DNA of 64,000 nt from Allocatelliglobosispora scoriae. Its GTDB lineage: Bacteria; Actinomycetota; Actinomycetes; Mycobacteriales; Micromonosporaceae. Positions 5,925-27,305 of the stretch are shown piece by piece. The stretch lies in assembly GCF_014204945.1 (NCBI RefSeq), contig NZ_JACHMN010000001.1, positions 868,001 through 932,000 on the forward strand, written 5' to 3'. Position numbers and translations under genes: made by a program. The notes below the pieces were generated by a model. The model was not told the DNA's origin, did no database searches, and saw only the letters and a program-made list of their open reading frames with translations. How positions within the stretch are numbered: position 1 is the first letter of the stretch; the number at the start of each line of letters is the position of its first letter.

Positions 5925-10046
<4,122 letters not shown>

Positions 10047-14961: not shown

Positions 14962-15639
14962 TCAGCCGTAGCCGCCGTCGACGTAGACGATCTGGCCGGT
15001 GACGTACCGGGCCTCGTCGGAGCAGAGGAAGGACACCACTGCCGCCACCTCGTCGGGGTGTCCGATCTTGCGCAACGGGATCGAGCTCGCGCGGTCGTCG
15101 TTCTCAAGGTGGGCGCTGGTGCCGTCGGTGAGGATGAAGCCGGGACCGACGGCGTTGCAGCGGATGCCGCGGGGGCCGAGTTCGAGCGCGGCAGTCCTGG
15201 TGAGGGCCTCGAGGGCGGCTTTCGACACCGGGTACAACCCGAGTCCGCCGACCGGCCTGCGGGCGACGACCGAGGAGACGTTCACGACCGCGCCGCCTGC
15301 GGGCATGGCAGGGGTGAGCGCCTGCATGAGGTTCAGGGGCCCGAGCAGGTTGACCTGCAGTACTTCGCGTGCGGCGGTGGCGGACAGCAGCGGCTCGAAC
15401 CGCCAGATGCCGGCGTTGTTGACCAGCACGTCGCACACCTGGACCTGTTCGGCGAAGGCGGAGACCGCGTCGCGGTCGGTGACGTCGACGACGGCTGGTT
15501 GCGCACCGCATTCCCGGCAGGTCTCGGCGAGCAGTTCGGCGTCCACGTCCACAGCCACGGTGCGGTGCCCGTCGGCGATGAGCCGGCGGAGGATGGCCCG
15601 GCCGATCCCGCGGGCCGCCCCGGTGACCACCGCCGTCAC
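14962..15639 (-). CDS. short-chain dehydrogenase/reductase of the terpene locus
   Basis: 225 residues from a GTG at 15639 that overlaps the P450 stop by four bases (GTGA), showing translational coupling. Classical SDR motifs are visible: TGAARGIG (cofactor glycines), NNAG, VSSVV (catalytic Ser), YPVSK (Tyr/Lys) and the C-terminal YVDGGYG. It should oxidise an alcohol or reduce a ketone with NAD(P)H. In this context the likely substrate is the P450-hydroxylated terpenoid, which is inference from coupling. Confidence 0.88.
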   Translation of the reverse strand: MTAVVTGAARGIGRAILRRLIADGHRTVAVDVDAELLAETCRECGAQPAVVDVTDRDAVSAFAEQVQVCDVLVNNAGIWRFEPLLSATAAREVLQVNLLGPLNLMQALTPAMPAGGAVVNVSSVVARRPVGGLGLYPVSKAALEALTRTAALELGPRGIRCNAVGPGFILTDGTSAHLENDDRASSIPLRKIGHPDEVAAVVSFLCSDEARYVTGQIVYVDGGYG

Positions 15640-16220
15640 CGCTGCACCCGGACGGGGAGCTGTGCTCGGCCGCGCAGCAGGAACCCGGGCAGGTATCGCG
15701 GTTCGTGGTCGGCGACTTCGATCCGGCGAGTGCGGGCCGCCAGGGTTTGCAGGGCGATTCGGCCCTGCAGGAGTGCCAGTCCCGCGCCGAGACAGGCGTG
15801 GATGCCGTGGCCGAACGCGATGTGCCGGTGCAGGTCGGCGCGGTCGGGGTCGAAGCGGTCGGGCCGGTCGAAGACCGCCTCGTCGCGGTTGGCCGAGGCG
15901 AAGGAGACCAGGACTGTCGCTCCGGCGGGCAGTGCGGTGCCGCCGAGGAGCGTCGCGCAGGTGACCCGGCGGGGCATCTGCTGGACAGGGCTGCACCACC
16001 GCAGGGCTTCCTGGGTGACCCGGGTGGCGTGGGCCGCGTCGGCGCGGAGCCGCCTCCACTCGGCCGGGCGGTCGCAGAGCAGTGCGACCGCCTCGGCCAA
16101 CAGGCGGGTGGTGGTTTCGTTCCCCGCGACCAGCAGCGGTCGGATCAATCCGAGGAGTACGGCCAGGCGTTCGTCTGGGTCGTCGACGGTCTCGTCGACG
16201 GCCGCCACCATCCGGCTCAG

Positions 16221-16240
16221 CAGGTCATCGCAGGTCATCG
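16221..16240. repeat. 10-bp tandem duplication causing the P450 frameshift
   Basis: The decamer CAGGTCATCG occurs twice in direct succession on the + strand (16221-16230, 16231-16240). One copy is exactly what P450 homology needs; the second shifts the frame and creates a TGA. Confidence 0.92.
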
Positions 16241-16910
16241 CCGGGATGGCGGCGGCGGGCGGCGCATTCGTGCGCCATGACGGCGTCGAACTCCGCCCGG
16301 TCGTGCTCGCCGCTCAGCAAAGCCTCGGGGCCGGGAGAGGCGCCGACCGACAAGGTCATGGCGGTGGTCCACCGCCGGACCTGGTCCCGGTGCTCCGGTC
16401 CGAGCCCGAGGACCCCGCAGATCGTCGACACGGGCAGCGGGACGGCGAGGTGCCGGACGAGGTCTCCCTCGTCGGGCAACGCCGCCACCAGTTCCTCCGC
16501 GACGGCCCGCACCCGGCCGGCGGTCCAGGCCAAAGCCCGGGGGGTGAACGCCCGGTTGACCATCCGGCGGTAGCGGTCGTGATCCGGTGGGTCATTGTTG
16601 AGCAGGGTGTGGATCGTCCGGGGACGGCCTTCACGCAGTCTCGCGAGCTGCTCGCGGACCTCCGGTGGCGGCGGGGGCCGCTTGTCGGTTCTGGAGGAGA
16701 AGCGGGCGGGGTCGGCGAGAACCTCTCGGGCCAGGTTCATGGTCGCGGCGAAGTACAGGTCGCGTCCGGGTACCGGGCACAGCGGTGCTTCGCGGCGCAT
16801 CTGCGCGTACCACGGATATGGGTTCCGCTGGAACACCGGGTCGTCGACATCAAGCCGCGACAGCTCGACAGCGTTCACGAATCCATTAGCGGCCGGGTCG
16901 GGCACACGGG

Positions 16911-16941
16911 ATAGTGCCTGTTCCGCAGGACGGAACACTAT
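16911..16941. promoter_or_regulatory. inverted repeat between the P450 and terpene synthase starts
   Basis: Arms TGTTCCG (16919-16925) and CGGAACA (16931-16937) are perfect inverted repeats around a 5-base centre. Outer arms ATAG and CTAT extend the symmetry with a 4-base interruption on the left. The dyad lies 37-67 bases upstream of the terpene synthase ATG and within or just before the P450 start, so it is a candidate operator for the divergent pair. Confidence 0.5.
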
Positions 16942-16977
16942 CTTGTCCGGCTCTGCCTGGCCGCGCACCATCACCGC

Positions 16978-17823
16978 ATGGAGCTTGTCGGGTGGGCCCG
17001 CGCCTGGGACCTGGTCACCACCGCCGAACAGGGGCGGCGGTTGGACGCGATGCGCCTGGCGGAGTTCGCCGCGGACGCGCTGCCCGGCGGCGATACCGCC
17101 GAGCGGGACCTCGTCGCTCAATGGTCAGCTTTCATCTGCATCGTCGACGACGAACTCGACACGACCGAGCTGGGACGGCGGCCCGAACGTGTCCGCGCCG
17201 CGATGTCGGCCCTCATCGCCGTCCTCGACGGGCATACCGCAGCCCCCTGCCTGCCTGCAGCCGAGGCGGCACTCGCCGACCTGTGGGCGCGGACAGCACC
17301 GAGGATGACACCGCAAGGGCGGTCCGCCTTCGTCACCCACTACCAGGACTTCGCTGCCGCTCTCGTGGCTGAGGCCGACCTGCGATCCAGCTCGAGACGA
17401 CCTACCCTCATCGCATACCTGCCGCTGCGTCACCGGACCATCGCCATCTACCCGGTGATCGACATCGTGGAGTGCCTGGCGTTGCATTCGGCACCGCCCG
17501 ATGCACCGGACCTGCGAGAGGCCCTCGTCGACGCCATCGCCATCGCCAACGATCTCGCCTCCGCCGGCAATGACGCCTCGCACGGGCACCACAACCTCCT
17601 CACCGTGCTCGCCGCTGAAAGGAACTGTTCTGCCGCCGACGCCATCGCGGAGGCCTCCCGGATGCTCAGCCAGAGCCTGCAGCGGTTCCGGACCGCTGCC
17701 GCGCGATCGGATCCGGCTCATGCCGCTGCGCTCAGTTGCCTGCTGACCGCCTGCGTGAAGTGGAACGACACCACTGGACGCTTTCTGATCGACCAGCGTT
17801 CCAGCGCAGCCGGACAGCGCTGA
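16978..17823 (+). CDS. class I terpene synthase
   Basis: 281 residues. The Mg2+-binding aspartate motif is DDELD at residues 57-61. The second metal motif reads NDLASAGND at 191-199, matching NDxxSxxxE except for Asp in place of the final Glu. Arg residues ahead of it (RHRT, 151-153) fit the pyrophosphate sensor. The protein is shorter at the N-terminus than usual, but a TAG at 16912 and the absence of other start codons force the ATG at 16978. No ribosome-binding site is visible, so translation may be leaderless. With the class II cyclase it forms the two-step pair of labdane-type diterpene synthesis. Confidence 0.85.
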   Translation: MELVGWARAWDLVTTAEQGRRLDAMRLAEFAADALPGGDTAERDLVAQWSAFICIVDDELDTTELGRRPERVRAAMSALIAVLDGHTAAPCLPAAEAALADLWARTAPRMTPQGRSAFVTHYQDFAAALVAEADLRSSSRRPTLIAYLPLRHRTIAIYPVIDIVECLALHSAPPDAPDLREALVDAIAIANDLASAGNDASHGHHNLLTVLAAERNCSAADAIAEASRMLSQSLQRFRTAAARSDPAHAAALSCLLTACVKWNDTTGRFLIDQRSSAAGQR

Positions 17824-22179: not shown

Positions 22180-25134
22180 GTGTTGAGGTTCAGGTTGCTC
22201 GGCTCGGTTGAGGTGTGGTCTGGCGAGACGTCGGTGCCGCTCGGCGGGGCGAAACCGAAGGCGTTGCTGGCGCTGCTCATGCTCGAACGAGGCCATGTCG
22301 TGGCCACCCACCGCCTGATCGACATCATCTGGGGCGAGGATCCGCCGGAGACGGTTCGGTCGCTGATCCAGGTGTACGTCTCGACGCTGCGCCGCAACCT
22401 GGCCGACCACGGCCTGCCTGACGTGATCGTCACCCAGGCGCCGGGCTACGTGTTGCAGGTTCCCGCCGAGGCGGTGGACCGAGACGTTTTCCTGCGCCTG
22501 GTCGAGCAGAGCCGTACGGTGACGGGAGCCCAGCGGGTCGGGCTGCTGCGCATGGCACTGGAGCTGTGGCGGGGCCCGGCGCTGGGCGGGCTGGAGCAGG
22601 CGGTGCTGGTGAGCGAGGCGCTCCGCCTGGAGCAGCAGCGACTGTCCGCCACGGAGGAGCGGATCGCCGCAGAGCTGGAGCTCGGACTCCACGACCAGCT
22701 CGTCGGCGAGCTCGCCAGGTTGGTGGCCCAGCACCCGGCCAACGAGCGATTGCGTGGGCAGTTCATGCTCGCGTTGCAGCGGCAGGGCAAGCAGGCCGAC
22801 GCGCTGGCCACCTTCCGCGAGTGCCGCGAACACCTCGCCCAGGAGCTGGGGTTGGACCCCGGGCCTGAACTGGTCGCGCTGCATGAGGGCATCTTGCGTG
22901 GGGACCTTCAGCAAAGGCAGCATCGGGTACCCACCCAGCTTCCCCGCGTACCGGATGATTTCACCGGCCGAAGCGAGGAGATCACCGTCCTGACCCGCCC
23001 GGGTCGAAGCAGGCTGCAGATCATCGCCGGGCAGGGTGGCTGCGGCAAGTCGGCCTTGGCAGCTCACGTCGCCAGGTCCCTGGCATCGTGGTATCCCGAT
23101 GGCCAGTTGCATGCCGAGCTGCGCGGAATGAGTGACAACCCGGCCGAGCCCGCTGAGGTGCTGGCGCGCTTTCTGCGAGCGTTGGGCGTGGAGGCGGGCC
23201 GGATACCGGAGTCCACCGTCGAGCGGGCCGAGCTGTTCCGGGGCCTGCTGGAGGGCAGGCGGGTGTTGATCCTGCTCGACGATGCGCGCAACCTGGCTCA
23301 GATCCAGCCGCTCATACCGGCGACACCGCAGAGCTCAGTGCTGATCACGTCTCGGGACCGGCTCACCGGTCTGGCCGGGGCGCAGCTGACCGAACTCGGC
23401 GTCCTCGCTGCGGGGGAGGCGATCGAGCTGCTCAGCCACGTGGTCGGGGAACAGCGTGTGCGCCAGGACCTTGATGCGGCGCGGCAGATTGTGGGGCATT
23501 GCGGTGGGCTCCCGCTCGCGATCCGCATCGCCGGTGCCCGGCTCGCCAGCCGCGGCCGACTGCCGCTGAGCTGGCTGGCCGATCGGCTCGCCGATGAGAC
23601 ACGCAGGCTCGATGAGCTGTCCATCCAGGATATGGGCGTACGGGCAAGCATCGAGCTGAGCCACCAGGCCCTCGACTCGGTGAGCAAACTGGCGCTGGGT
23701 CGGATCGGATTCTTCGGCGTACCCGACTTCGCGGCGTGGACCGTGGGCTGGCTTACCGGGGTGTCTGAGGCGGACGCGGAAGATGTGATCGAGCGCCTGG
23801 TCGATGCCCAGCTCGTCGAGTTCTCGGGAGTGGATCGGCTGGGCAACCTGCGCTACGGCCTGCACGACCTGGTCCGCATCTGGGCCAGGGAGAACGCAGA
23901 GGCTACCGAGCCGCTCGAACAGTTACGAGCCTCGGTGACCAGGGTCCTGATCGGCTGGCTGTCCTATGTAGATCGTGCCGCCAAGGAGACGCAGCCTGAC
24001 GACATTCGCTGGCGGGTGACGCGAGATCACGGTGTGGTCGGTCCGCCGCTGGACGACCCGCGCGCCTGGTTCGAAGCGGAGCAGATCTGCATGGTGGCCG
24101 GGGTGGAACGGGCGGCGGCGCTGGGTCTGCACGAGCTGGCCTGCGACTTCGCGCCCGAGCAGTACTCGGCCGTGCTGAGCGGGGCCAATCGCTTCGACAC
24201 CCGCGCCCGGATCATCGACGCGGTGCTCAACGCGGCCCGCACCGCCGGGGACCTGCGCATCGAGGCGGTGATGACCGCAGAGATGGGCCAGTTGCGCTAC
24301 CTGCACGACCGGTTCGACGAGTCACGCCTGCTGTTCCGGGAGGCACTCGGGCGCTTTCGCGAGCTGGGTGACGAGCGTGGGCAGGCAGCCACCTTGGCCG
24401 GGCTGGGCGCGGCATGCCGCGAATCGGGCTTCCTGCTGGAAGCACTGCACTTTCTGGACCAGGCGGTCGGCCTGCTGCGGGGTCTCGACGACGACATCGG
24501 GATCGGCTATGCCCAGCGCCTAGCCGGATCGGTGCGCCTGGAAGCAGGTGATTTCAGCCAGGCCCTGGCAGACCTGCAGGAGGCCCTGAGCTGCTACCAG
24601 CGGGCAGGTAGCCGCCGCGGCGAGGCGCTGACGCTACGCACGCTCGGGCTCTTCCATCGGGCTCTGGGCAACTACGCCGAGTCGATCGAGCTGTGCGGCC
24701 GATCGCGACAGATATTCAGCGATCTCGGCGACGAACTGTTGGAGGCCTTCGCCGTGCGGGCCATGTGCAAGGCACGCTTCCGGCTTGACCCGAGCGACGA
24801 CGTACGCGAAGAGCTCGAATGGGCGCTGGAGGTCAGCCGGACGATGGAGGACCGCTGGGGGCAGGGCGCGACGCTGCGCGTACTCGGCGAGTGGTATCTG
24901 GCCCGAGGCGAGCTGGACCAAGCCGAGGCCCAGCTCATCGCGGCCAGGGAGGTTCTATCGGTTTTGGAGGCCCCGCTGTGGACGGCGCGCACCGAACACG
25001 ACCTGTCCCTGGTGTACGCCGCGCAGGGCAGAACGGACCTGTCGGCGGAGCTTGAATCGCGAGCACTGAGCGCCTTCCACGACCGCAATGCGCGGGAGTA
25101 TGCCGAGCTCACCGGCACTAAACCGAGCGGTTAA
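22180..25134 (+). CDS. AfsR/SARP-family regulator with NB-ARC and TPR domains
   Basis: 984 residues from the GTG at 22180 (just after a G-run); the frame is open 18 codons further but RFRLLGSVEV is the usual beginning. Order: OmpR-type winged helix (1-80; PKALLALLMLERGHVV, DIIWGEDPPETVRSLIQVYVSTL), bacterial transcriptional activation domain (85-235), NB-ARC ATPase with P-loop GQGGCGKSA near residue 285 and Walker B-like LILLDDA, then TPRs. SARPs bind direct heptamer repeats at -35. Such repeats lie right after this gene (25130) and before 26640, so the adjacent cell-wall genes are the likely targets (inference). Confidence 0.92.
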   Translation: MLRFRLLGSVEVWSGETSVPLGGAKPKALLALLMLERGHVVATHRLIDIIWGEDPPETVRSLIQVYVSTLRRNLADHGLPDVIVTQAPGYVLQVPAEAVDRDVFLRLVEQSRTVTGAQRVGLLRMALELWRGPALGGLEQAVLVSEALRLEQQRLSATEERIAAELELGLHDQLVGELARLVAQHPANERLRGQFMLALQRQGKQADALATFRECREHLAQELGLDPGPELVALHEGILRGDLQQRQHRVPTQLPRVPDDFTGRSEEITVLTRPGRSRLQIIAGQGGCGKSALAAHVARSLASWYPDGQLHAELRGMSDNPAEPAEVLARFLRALGVEAGRIPESTVERAELFRGLLEGRRVLILLDDARNLAQIQPLIPATPQSSVLITSRDRLTGLAGAQLTELGVLAAGEAIELLSHVVGEQRVRQDLDAARQIVGHCGGLPLAIRIAGARLASRGRLPLSWLADRLADETRRLDELSIQDMGVRASIELSHQALDSVSKLALGRIGFFGVPDFAAWTVGWLTGVSEADAEDVIERLVDAQLVEFSGVDRLGNLRYGLHDLVRIWARENAEATEPLEQLRASVTRVLIGWLSYVDRAAKETQPDDIRWRVTRDHGVVGPPLDDPRAWFEAEQICMVAGVERAAALGLHELACDFAPEQYSAVLSGANRFDTRARIIDAVLNAARTAGDLRIEAVMTAEMGQLRYLHDRFDESRLLFREALGRFRELGDERGQAATLAGLGAACRESGFLLEALHFLDQAVGLLRGLDDDIGIGYAQRLAGSVRLEAGDFSQALADLQEALSCYQRAGSRRGEALTLRTLGLFHRALGNYAESIELCGRSRQIFSDLGDELLEAFAVRAMCKARFRLDPSDDVREELEWALEVSRTMEDRWGQGATLRVLGEWYLARGELDQAEAQLIAAREVLSVLEAPLWTARTEHDLSLVYAAQGRTDLSAELESRALSAFHDRNAREYAELTGTKPSG

Positions 25135-25158
25135 GCCGCGCTTTAGCGGAGTTTTGGC
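25130..25158 (+). promoter_or_regulatory. SARP-type direct heptamer repeats upstream of the NlpC-like gene
   Basis: Heptamers GTTAAGC (25130-25136), CTTTAGC (25141-25147) and the weaker TTTTGGC (25152-25158) are spaced by exactly four bases, giving an 11-bp period. CAGTCT at 25168-25173, nine bases further, could be the -10, placing transcription start at the ATG (25180). The first heptamer overlaps the stop codon of the AfsR-like gene. Confidence 0.7.
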
Positions 25159-25179
25159 GCCTGCCCGCAGTCTTTCGGC

Positions 25180-26502
25180 ATGACAAACAAAGCGCTTACC
25201 CGAGTCCTCACCACCGCATTGGCCGCCATTGCCGCAGCCGCCTTCGGCATCGTCGGCGGGGCCGCCTCCAGCATGACGGCGACTCCGCAGGCCGCCCACG
25301 CCGCGTCCTCGCTCGGCGGACAGATCAGCCGCCAGGAGATCCTCGACCGCGCCGCGCACTGGCTCAGCACCAACCCGGTGACCTACAACCCGAATGCCAC
25401 CGACAAATGGGACGTCGGCAATACGAGAATGTATCGACGCGACTGCTCCGGGCTCATCGACATGGCCTGGCACCTCAATGCCGACCCGAACTCGGTCGGC
25501 CTGGGAACGAGCACCTACGCCAATCCGGTCGCCAAGCAGGATCTGAAGGCAGGCGACATCCTGACCGTCGGCGGAAGCGGCCCCAGCGGACACGTGGTGC
25601 TCTTCGCCCGGTGGGCACCGGCGTATCCAACCTTCGAGTACTACTCGTTCGGCAGCAACGACGTCAAATACCGCACCGCCAGCCTCACGTCGGGCACCAT
25701 CGATTCGTGGACCGCCACCAACTACAGCGCGTTCGGGTACAAGAACGTTGTCGACACCTACAACGGACACATCCCGGTAGCCGGGGACTGGAACGGTGAC
25801 GGCACCACCACCATCGGCAGCTGGGACACCGCGTCGAGCACCTTCTACCTGAAGAACTCCAACAGCTCCGGTGCCGCTGACTACGTGTTCGGCTACGGCT
25901 GCAGCGGGTGCGGTGACATCCCGGTGGCCGGCGACTGGAACGGCGACGGCATCGACACCATCGGCATCTTCCGGCCCAGCTCAGGCCAGTTCTACCTGAA
26001 GAACTCCAACAGCTCCGGCACCGCCGACTACATCTTCAGCTACGGCGGCGCGGGGCACTACCCGGTGGTCGGCGACTGGAACGGCGACGGCATCGACACC
26101 ATCGGCACCTACGTGGCCAGCGCGGCCACGTTCTACCTGCACAACTCCAACAGTGCCGGCACCGCCGACTACGTCTTCGGCTACGGCGGCGGCGGGCACA
26201 AGCCGGTGGTCGGCGACTGGAACAACGACGGCATCGACACCATCGGCACCTACGTACCCAGCGCGGGCACCTTCTACCTGCACAACTCCAACAGCGCCGG
26301 CACCGCCGACTACGTCATCGCCTACGGCGGCGGCAGCCACGTCCCGGTCGCCGGCGACTGGAACGGCGATGGCGTCACCAGCATCGGGACCTGGGAGACC
26401 GGCGGCCACACGTTCTACCTGAAGAACTCCAACAGTGCCGGCACCGCCGACTACGTCTTCGGCTACGGCTCGGCCGGTTCGGGTGCCCCGTACCCCTACT
26501 AG
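25180..26502 (+). CDS. secreted NlpC/P60-like protein with FG-GAP/VCBS-type repeats
   Basis: 440 residues. Residues 1-42 are a Sec signal peptide ending AAHA-A. An NlpC/P60-like papain-fold domain follows: RRDCSGL (Cys89) and the SGHVVLF histidine (His138), suggesting cell-wall amidase or endopeptidase activity. From about 185 come five ~46-residue units with the calcium-binding-like pattern PVAGDWNGDG-D-TIG and FYLKNSNS-GTADYVF, which probably form a beta-propeller-like binding module. No ribosome-binding site is seen, so the mRNA may be leaderless. It lies 45 bases after the AfsR-like gene and behind SARP-type repeats. Confidence 0.85.
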   Translation: MTNKALTRVLTTALAAIAAAAFGIVGGAASSMTATPQAAHAASSLGGQISRQEILDRAAHWLSTNPVTYNPNATDKWDVGNTRMYRRDCSGLIDMAWHLNADPNSVGLGTSTYANPVAKQDLKAGDILTVGGSGPSGHVVLFARWAPAYPTFEYYSFGSNDVKYRTASLTSGTIDSWTATNYSAFGYKNVVDTYNGHIPVAGDWNGDGTTTIGSWDTASSTFYLKNSNSSGAADYVFGYGCSGCGDIPVAGDWNGDGIDTIGIFRPSSGQFYLKNSNSSGTADYIFSYGGAGHYPVVGDWNGDGIDTIGTYVASAATFYLHNSNSAGTADYVFGYGGGGHKPVVGDWNNDGIDTIGTYVPSAGTFYLHNSNSAGTADYVIAYGGGSHVPVAGDWNGDGVTSIGTWETGGHTFYLKNSNSAGTADYVFGYGSAGSGAPYPY

Positions 26503-26520
26503 ATCTTCGTAACTCGTCCC

Positions 26521-26552
26521 CGGGGGCACGGACCATGCGGTCCGTGCCCCCG
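26521..26552 (+). terminator. strong hairpin terminator after the NlpC-like gene
   Basis: A perfect 14-bp stem (CGGGGGCACGGACC with its complement) around the loop ATGC begins 19 bases after the stop at 26502. No T-run follows, as is common in high-GC actinomycetes. It isolates the next gene, which has its own SARP-type box. Confidence 0.85.
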
Positions 26553-26573
26553 AACGCGCGTTGACCCGCCGGG

Positions 26574-26591
26574 TTTAAGCAACTCTTTAGC
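26574..26591 (+). promoter_or_regulatory. SARP-type direct heptamer repeats upstream of the VanX-like gene
   Basis: TTTAAGC (26574-26580) and CTTTAGC (26585-26591) are separated by four bases, an 11-bp period, and share the core of the repeats at 25130. CATTGT about nine bases downstream could be the -10. A start near 26612 would leave a short leader with GAGGT before the ATG at 26640. Confidence 0.7.
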
Positions 26592-26639
26592 GGCCCCGGT
26601 CATTGTGCTCGGAAAGCCAAACCCAACCCGAGGTAGATC

Positions 26640-27305
26640 ATGTCCGACATCATGCTGCTAGGCGATCAAGCCATCAGCGCCATCGCCGTGCACGAGTGCG
26701 GTGAACCGCTTCAAGACCTGCGCCGGGCACCCGCCCTGCGCCTCGACCCGAGGCTCGCCGACCCGGCCGGCGAGTACGCCCACCTCCGCGCGGGTGTCGT
26801 GGACCGGCTCGTCACCGCCCAGACCATGCTGCCGATCGGCATTCGACTGCTCATCGTGGAGGGCTACCGTCCGCTCGAGGTGCAGGCCGACAGCTACACA
26901 CTGCGGTTGGACAACCTCACTCGGGCCCATCCGCACCGCAACGCCGCCTGGCTGCGCCAGGAGACCAGCCGCTTCGTCGCCCCGCCGGAGGTTTCCGGGC
27001 ACGTCGCGGGCGCCGCCGTCGACCTCACCCTGTGTGATGCCGACGGCGCCGAGCTGTGGCTCGGCTCGCAGCTCAACGACATCGCGTCCGAGGCGTGCTA
27101 CACCGATTGCGCCGACCTCCCGCCGCAGGCCCGGCGTCACCGCAACGAGCTGGCCCGAGCCCTGCAAGCGGTGGGCCTGGTGAACTACCCGACGCAGTGG
27201 TGGCACTGGTCCTACGGCGACCGCTACTGGGCGTTCCACACGGGTGCGCAGGCGGCCAGGTACGCAACGATCGCACGCTGGATCCAACCGGACGACGCCG
27301 GTTAG
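26640..27305 (+). CDS. VanX/DdpX-like D-alanyl-D-alanine dipeptidase with Gln in place of catalytic Glu
   Basis: 221 residues, cytoplasmic (no signal peptide). Family motifs: EGYRP (Arg77, transition-state Arg), SGHVAGAAVD (zinc ligands His121 and Asp128) and QWWHW (third zinc ligand His189). In VanX the residue three before this His is the catalytic base Glu181; here it is Gln186 (codon CAG). All other core residues are present, so zinc may bind but dipeptide hydrolysis is expected to be impaired. It may act as a D-Ala-D-Ala or muropeptide binding/sensing protein. It stands behind a terminator and a SARP-type box shared with the upstream cell-wall protein. Confidence 0.85.
   Translation: MSDIMLLGDQAISAIAVHECGEPLQDLRRAPALRLDPRLADPAGEYAHLRAGVVDRLVTAQTMLPIGIRLLIVEGYRPLEVQADSYTLRLDNLTRAHPHRNAAWLRQETSRFVAPPEVSGHVAGAAVDLTLCDADGAELWLGSQLNDIASEACYTDCADLPPQARRHRNELARALQAVGLVNYPTQWWHWSYGDRYWAFHTGAQAARYATIARWIQPDDAG

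Follow-up and report, generated by a model that had tools for sequence, protein, structure and literature searches.

SARPs are known mainly as activators of antibiotic gene clusters (PMC10972967), and two described systems are close to the one reported here. In the AfsR–afsS complex of Streptomyces coelicolor, two SARP protomers sit on two 11-base-pair (bp) direct repeats that overlap the −35 region and take its place; the contacts cover the first 8 bp of each repeat, with Arg92 reading T−38 and Thr88 the base pair at −36, the −10 is a weak CACTGT, and ATP binding relieves the inhibition exerted by the NB-ARC and TPR parts (PMC10936776). The AfsR box core is given as CGTT(T/C)ATCGNN (PMC10972967). 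In the PimR–pimM system, a SARP-LAL regulator is paired with a heptamer triplet with 4-bp spacers and a doublet with a 3-bp spacer, both built on the core CGGCAAG and both lying in one antibiotic-cluster promoter (PMC5930380). Here we describe a three-gene locus of the actinomycete Allocatelliglobosispora scoriae, in which an AfsR-like regulator is followed by genes for a secreted NlpC/P60-fold protein and a VanX-like protein. The locus lies in a 64,000-nucleotide (nt) stretch of contig NZ_JACHMN010000001.1 (positions 868,001 to 932,000), which we call the window and whose own numbering we use throughout.

The locus shares with AfsR–afsS the domain order of the regulator, a pair of 11-bp direct repeats where the −35 element would stand and weak −10 hexamers (CAGTCT and CATTGT), and differs from it in the targets, which are cell-wall-type proteins rather than AfsS, and in the box core, which is TTWAGC-like. 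As in PimR–pimM, a heptamer triplet with 4-bp spacers is accompanied by a doublet; unlike there, the doublet also has a 4-bp spacer, the core is another one, and the two operators front two separate wall-type genes. From the comparisons that follow, we consider it likely that the locus forms a three-gene SARP–STAND module in which one regulator controls both of its neighbours. The three genes, all on the + strand, occupy 22180–27305, with these features:

22180..25134, + strand: AfsR-type large SARP regulator, 984 aa (Pfam Trans_reg_C, BTAD, NB-ARC and TPR_12; AfsR chain 8hvr)
25130..25136, + strand: heptamer GTTAAGC, the third and outermost of promoter 1, which includes the TAA stop of the regulator
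25141..25147, + strand: heptamer CTTTAGC, upstream repeat of the promoter 1 core operator
25152..25158, + strand: heptamer TTTTGGC, the promoter 1 repeat closest to the −10
25168..25173, + strand: −10-like CAGTCT of promoter 1, 9 bp past the last heptamer
25180..26502, + strand: secreted-type NlpC/P60-fold and beta-propeller protein, 440 aa (structure model, fold matches, FG-GAP-like repeats)
26521..26552, + strand: 14-bp hairpin between the two target genes (−35.5 kcal/mol for 26510–26560, z −5.6)
26574..26580, + strand: heptamer TTTAAGC of promoter 2
26585..26591, + strand: heptamer CTTTAGC of promoter 2
26601..26606, + strand: −10-like CATTGT of promoter 2, 9 bp past the last heptamer
26640..27305, + strand: VanX-like M15 protein, 221 aa (Pfam Peptidase_M15 2.5e-15; aligned to VanX 1r44)

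The regulator, which a sequence-only reading of the window had called AfsR-like, contains the parts of a large SARP of the AfsR type: an OmpR-type DNA-binding part (Pfam Trans_reg_C 2.8e-10), BTAD (3.8e-39), NB-ARC/STAND (8.3e-17) and TPR (TPR_12, 1.3e-21). Over its first 240 residues, it can be aligned with AfsR as seen in solved structures of transcription complexes (8hvr, E 3.1e-39). The three heptamers of promoter 1 (25130–25158) and the two of promoter 2 (26574–26591) keep an 11-bp period with 4-bp spacers, and re-reading the sequence placed them exactly where that first reading had. Its pairing, however, was out of register by one repeat in promoter 1, because the bracketed TTTTGGC is the heptamer that lies closest to the −10; measured from the −10, the equivalent pairs are CTTTAGC/TTTTGGC in promoter 1 and TTTAAGC/CTTTAGC in promoter 2. 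Both promoters therefore carry the mark of a SARP operator, namely 11-bp direct repeats at a fixed short distance from a −10. By our placement, the 8-bp core would likewise end 9 bp before the afsS −10 (set at the usual −12 to −7); the "8 bp" between repeat and −10 given in PMC10936776 varies with where one sets the edge of the repeat. When 18 operators were aligned by eye at this fixed spacing, positions 2 and 6 of the −10 hexamer were A and T in every one.

Taken together, these features suggest a simple mechanism. The 22180 regulator would bind the heptamer direct repeats, which stand in for a −35 element, and would recruit RNA polymerase to two weak promoters whose −10 lies 9 bp past the last heptamer; promoter 1 would drive the secreted NlpC/P60-fold hydrolase with its lectin-like beta-propeller, and promoter 2 the cytosolic VanX-like protein. 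We infer binding and activation at both promoters from sequence, and the NB-ARC/TPR part presumably holds the regulator off until a signal arrives, as in AfsR. The ATG of the 25180 gene lies only 6 nt past CAGTCT, with no Shine-Dalgarno-like sequence in front of it, which fits a leaderless mRNA for the first target; at one related locus (L119), seven nt separate the −10 from the ATG. The hairpin at 26521–26552 is a probable terminator and parts the second gene from the third, so that the VanX-like gene probably has its own promoter.

The repeats exceed expectation in the window and are rare in the genome. TTWAGC-N5-TTWAGC with at most two mismatches has four matches in the window against 0.73 expected, three being the operator sites in register and the fourth a reverse-strand match that overlaps promoter 1. 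TTWARGC-N4-YTTTAGC with at most one mismatch finds the two module promoters and nothing else in the whole 9.15-Mb genome, so that the scan for heptamer pairs which the sequence-only reading had called for argues against randomly scattered repeats. At two mismatches it finds 15 further sites, and a backwards control pattern finds 68, so that nothing in the genome beyond the two promoters exceeds chance. This pattern was derived from the window sites themselves; the non-circular test is a matrix for which 18 operators were chosen by eye, all from other genomes and none from the window. The outside matrix ranks 26574 first in the window (20.7 bits) and 25141 second (15.0), followed by a reverse-strand match inside promoter 2 (14.4) and the outer pair at 25130 (13.2). 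The 15 two-mismatch sites score at most 9.8 bits, and thus no further target was found in the genome, for which a scan that includes the −10 was not made.

To place the locus among its relatives, we searched the regulator in 354 genomes of the family, with two candidates scored per genome, and in 396 genomes of a phylum sample. Some SARP matched at E 1e-100 or better in 284 of the family genomes; two genomes of the phylum sample, one of them the window's own, have a match that reaches E 1e-170. Regions fetched around 26 vanX-like matches and 30 regulator matches, plus named Microtetraspora and Herbidospora loci, yielded at least 35 module loci (given L numbers below) in 28 genomes, with six in a single genome. 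This count is a lower bound, because modules may sit behind regulator matches outside the 30 fetched regions. The order regulator–hydrolase–VanX-like is found in the window, L076, L107 and L130, regulator–VanX-like–hydrolase in L125–L127 and L132, and VanX-like–regulator in L052, L063 and L119–L121; regulator–VanX-like also occurs among the module loci, and the hydrolase lies on the opposite strand in L031, L057 and L133.

An operator of at least 15 bits is present in 34 of the 35 module loci, scored with each locus's own training row and all rows within 6 mismatches of it dropped; sixteen loci outside the training set were scored with relatives in it (L108, L109, L111–L118, L120, L121, L124, L126, L127 and L130). 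Operators that had no part in the training stand before hydrolase-type or VanX-like genes in L031, L057, L063, L068, L109, L119, L125–L127, L132 and L133, and in loci whose two target genes are separated, they are second operators that front the other gene. None of five SARP relatives that lack the module (L129, L131, L134–L136) has a 12-bit site, and none of 20 SARP-unlinked vanX homologues has an operator in the 300 bp upstream (best score 8.0). Stretches of 310 bp drawn at random from the module loci, some of which may hold true sites, score 6.1 at the 95th percentile and 15.8 at the 99th. Regulator, operators and both target types recur together, with the repeats kept upstream of related genes. 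These co-recurring genes and operators, together with the operator-free SARP-unlinked vanX homologues, support the earlier proposal of a self-contained cell-wall module that would be under SARP control and not belong to an antibiotic cluster.

Several features of the module loci were recorded along the way. In L052, L063, L119, L120 and L121, the regulator comes directly after an operator-fronted VanX-like gene and may thus be co-transcribed and self-activating. By eye, a GC-rich inverted repeat, GGGTGGCTCGGC...GAGCCACCC, lies between operator and VanX-like start in L110, L112, L114, L115, L117 and L118, with a slightly altered version in L051 and L113; it is possibly a leader structure or attenuator. 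In L112, L114, L115, L117 and L118, a weaker operator-like match (13–19 bits) precedes another open frame on the − strand, about 1.6–1.8 kb behind the regulator (the offset in L117 is unsure), and these matches may be chance. A link to plasmids was considered and set aside: at E 1e-80, 69 plasmid records match the regulator, with 33–39% identity among the 15 matches listed.

The DNA specificity of the regulator offers a further view of how the pieces belong together. T stands at index 1 (counting from 0) in all 36 training heptamers, and by our alignment would correspond to T−38/T−27 of afsS. Among the 39 regulators that could be compared out of 40 (L132 could not be placed), Val88 is common only to the window and L107, and in all eight boxes of these two loci index 2 is T and index 3 is T or A. 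In the main group, with Thr or Ser at residue 88, none of the 28 boxes has T at index 2, and T or A occupies index 3 in ten; L032 and L076 (Thr88, Ala85), with four boxes between them, show T followed by C at these two positions. Because each type is represented by one clade, this association is a lead rather than a proof. Boxes also match better within modules than between them (2.04 against 2.55 differing bases), a value reached by 3 of 20000 shuffles, or 29 of 20000 without the window. This comparison covered 10 two-promoter modules, including one (L126) of four near relatives and L128, whose second promoter lacks a recognised gene, and took outer boxes for three modules only. Limited to two boxes at every promoter, the comparison gives 2.08 within and 2.58 between modules; of 20000 shuffles, 9 are as low, 68 once the window is left out and 102 once L128 is left out as well. 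Finally, SARP and VanX-like distances correlate across 26 modules (r 0.76, 0 of 5000 permutations), the other 7 of 33 being left out since their regulator end was not read cleanly.

Several observations weigh against the regulatory reading. The base-reading residues of AfsR are changed in the window regulator (Thr88 to Val, Arg92 to Thr), so that the DNA contacts must differ in part; the regulator appears to have the architecture of AfsR and not its specificity, and would not count as an AfsR orthologue. T at index 2 is not specific to Val88, being found also in the Thr88 loci L032 and L076. Box matching fails in L126 (3.0 within, 2.73 between), the difference is barely seen in L068 and L133, and the distance correlation includes shared ancestry. 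The training operators were chosen by eye, and many of the scored loci have near relatives among them. L107 is the one locus that fails, at 5.4 bits with its own rows left out; it has a GAAGCT hexamer and, in register with it, three copies of TTTGGC. In L124, an operator at about 6717–6749 of the oriented sequence lies behind the regulator without a recognised target, which may have been lost, changed or undetected. L064, counted as SARP-unlinked, has a short SARP-domain match of 32% about 6 kb away. In the window itself, the fifth matrix rank falls to a place unrelated to the module (39516, − strand, 12.8 bits), so that the second site at 15.0 bits is not far above background.

The third gene proved to be VanX-like in part. 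The protein aligns with VanX 1r44 (E 5.4e-6), has the M15 homology listed above and retains the zinc ligands His, Asp and His (HVAGAAVD and the His of QWWH), which upholds the earlier assignment; against it, the catalytic Glu before WWH is replaced by Gln. From VanX chemistry, this replacement is expected to abolish activity. The catalytic Glu is present in 19 of 33 SARP-linked homologues, 11 of which form one close group, and in 19 of 20 unlinked ones. The 14 linked copies without it have Gln (four: the window, L057, L109 and L123), Arg (eight), Ala (one) or Cys (one), while the zinc ligands are retained in 32 of 33, L128 lacking the last His. Linked and unlinked proteins are separated by one branch (98/90), some rows lying on long branches; the Glu state changes three times among linked rows on the best tree, and over 1000 bootstrap trees three times in 925, twice in 56 and four times in 19. 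Those Arg, Cys and Ala forms whose sequence was read out measure 139–176 aa, with an uncertain upstream start, and of six compared with Pfam M15, one reaches the cut-off, two match below it and three have no match. Compared with VanX (M15D) of vanHAX and of the Micromonosporales pdx operon (PMC8698665), the window protein shares the fold family and zinc-ligand motifs, and differs in its separate tree group, its SARP partner and its Gln. That the catalytic Glu was lost repeatedly while the zinc ligands persisted suggests a role other than catalysis for such VanX relatives. A side case is L033 (Phytohabitans flavus), where no SARP relative was found within the 16-kb locus and the VanX homologue again shows Gln at the catalytic position and is missing the stretch that would hold the first zinc motif.

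The second gene had been called NlpC-like, and AlphaFold2, run on 12 module proteins, supports the fold with modest confidence while adding to it. Behind an N terminus that looks by eye like a signal peptide, the window protein is modelled as an NlpC/P60-fold domain (about residues 49–192) and a beta-propeller with FG-GAP-like repeats (about 195–440). The N-terminal domain matches RipA/RipB, MepS, Acd24020 and others with Z 9.8–10.8 over 111–125 residues, and Cys89 and His138 are invariant in all 12 aligned module proteins, an alignment that left out the CHAP-type and L107 proteins; at the third triad position, no invariant polar residue occurs in that strand. The window protein shares the fold and the Cys/His pair with these NlpC/P60 and CHAP hydrolases, and differs from them in its fused lectin-like propeller, its place below the NLPC_P60 cut-off and the SARP operator in front. 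Ten relatives compared with Pfam gave four NLPC_P60 matches, all below cut-off, two CHAP matches above it and four proteins without a hydrolase match at 0.05; L068 and L075 have a CHAP domain as their catalytic part. For the propeller, the best match is UmbA4 in complex with teichuronic acid (9oee; Foldseek E 2.5e-6, Z 13.4 over 228 residues at 20% identity, profile E 1.5e-7), which makes it a putative lectin of the UmbA beta-propeller kind, and the C-terminal parts vary between modules. A targeted peptidoglycan hydrolase is our best reading of these findings. It has to be set against a mean predicted local distance difference test score of 64, a Foldseek E of about 0.04 for NlpC/P60 chains and the lack of any Pfam NLPC_P60 match at 0.001.

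As to purpose, we tentatively favour a targeted peptidoglycan hydrolase directed at neighbouring bacteria, because modules retain the type of hydrolase but swap its C-terminal part, much as happens in the UmbA lectins. These lectins determine which species an umbrella toxin binds, and they too are diversified (PMC13274773); both proteins are of the secreted kind and combine an N-terminal part that stays constant with lectin or lectin-like domains, frequently beta-propellers, that can be exchanged (PMC13274773, PMC11062931), and the N-terminal domain is trypsin-like in UmbA and NlpC/P60-fold in the window protein. The VanX-like protein might serve as a sensor or holder of D-Ala-D-Ala-type ligands, or shield the producer.

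The alternative that survives best, which we nonetheless think unlikely, is that the producer remodels its own wall in development or stress, with the secreted protein as a propeller-anchored autolysin and the VanX-like protein trimming or recycling D-Ala-D-Ala. The hydrolase may act on the producer's own wall: RipA and RipB, own-wall hydrolases of mycobacteria, are among the fold matches, and Pfam recognised no immunity gene among the eight window genes scanned, a finding in favour of this alternative, although a novel type would escape such a scan. The variable C-terminal parts and the six modules in one genome look more like diversification of targets, and the rarity of such a SARP in the phylum sample also weighs against this alternative. 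Scavenging of peptidoglycan strikes us as improbable. Here the hydrolase would free muropeptides from dead or prey cells, the SARP–STAND protein would sense them, and the VanX-like protein would cleave D-Ala-D-Ala inside, as DdpX does within E. coli cells. The pairing of an outside hydrolase with an inside dipeptidase-like protein suits this idea, as does the activation of the STAND regulator MalT by maltotriose (PMC10936776), but the 14 linked VanX-like proteins without catalytic Glu, the window's included, do not, and no transporter was seen among the eight genes.

That the operators are real and yet bound by another SARP seems very unlikely: a first-look search with the 22180 SARP gave 118 candidates in the genome, against which stand adjacency, the correlated SARP/VanX-like distances and the within-module box matching. 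Even less credible is a glycopeptide-resistance-type function in which the SARP replaces VanRS; it has VanX homology in its favour, and is opposed by the lack of a vanH/vanA-type gene among the eight genes scanned, by the separation of SARP-linked from unlinked VanX-like proteins in the tree and by the missing Glu. A chance origin of the repeats, for which one could cite the mere 2.2 bits between the second site and the best unrelated place in the window, we regard as contradicted by the excess in the window, the rarity of the pair in the genome, the outside matrix that ranks both sites first and second, the conserved operators of the module loci and the operator-free upstream regions of SARP-unlinked vanX genes.

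Elsewhere in the window, frames at 15636–17823 resemble by eye a cytochrome P450 and a terpene-synthase-like protein (DDELD, NDLASAGND), which suggests a small terpene cluster.

A SARP with VanX-like or NlpC-type targets did not appear among the matches listed in the open PMC literature. PMC13290855 contains both words but apart from each other, and the main text of PMC8698665, on vanX in Actinobacteria, contains neither "SARP" nor "AfsR". A bolder extension of the SARP–STAND module, which we offer as speculation more likely to fail than hold, is that such loci form an undescribed class of actinobacterial antagonism modules, which would join a SARP–STAND sensor, a lectin-guided hydrolase and a VanX-derived zinc pseudo-peptidase for sensing or self-protection, and whose insulated regulator/operator pairs would change together, the middle of the box tracking SARP residues 84–88. 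If the regulatory reading is true, a conserved and multiplied wall module would widen what SARPs control. With its two promoters, the module would also be a small system in which to look for the natural inducer of a SARP–STAND protein, and its many loci would supply natural regulator/operator variants for tests of SARP DNA specificity.

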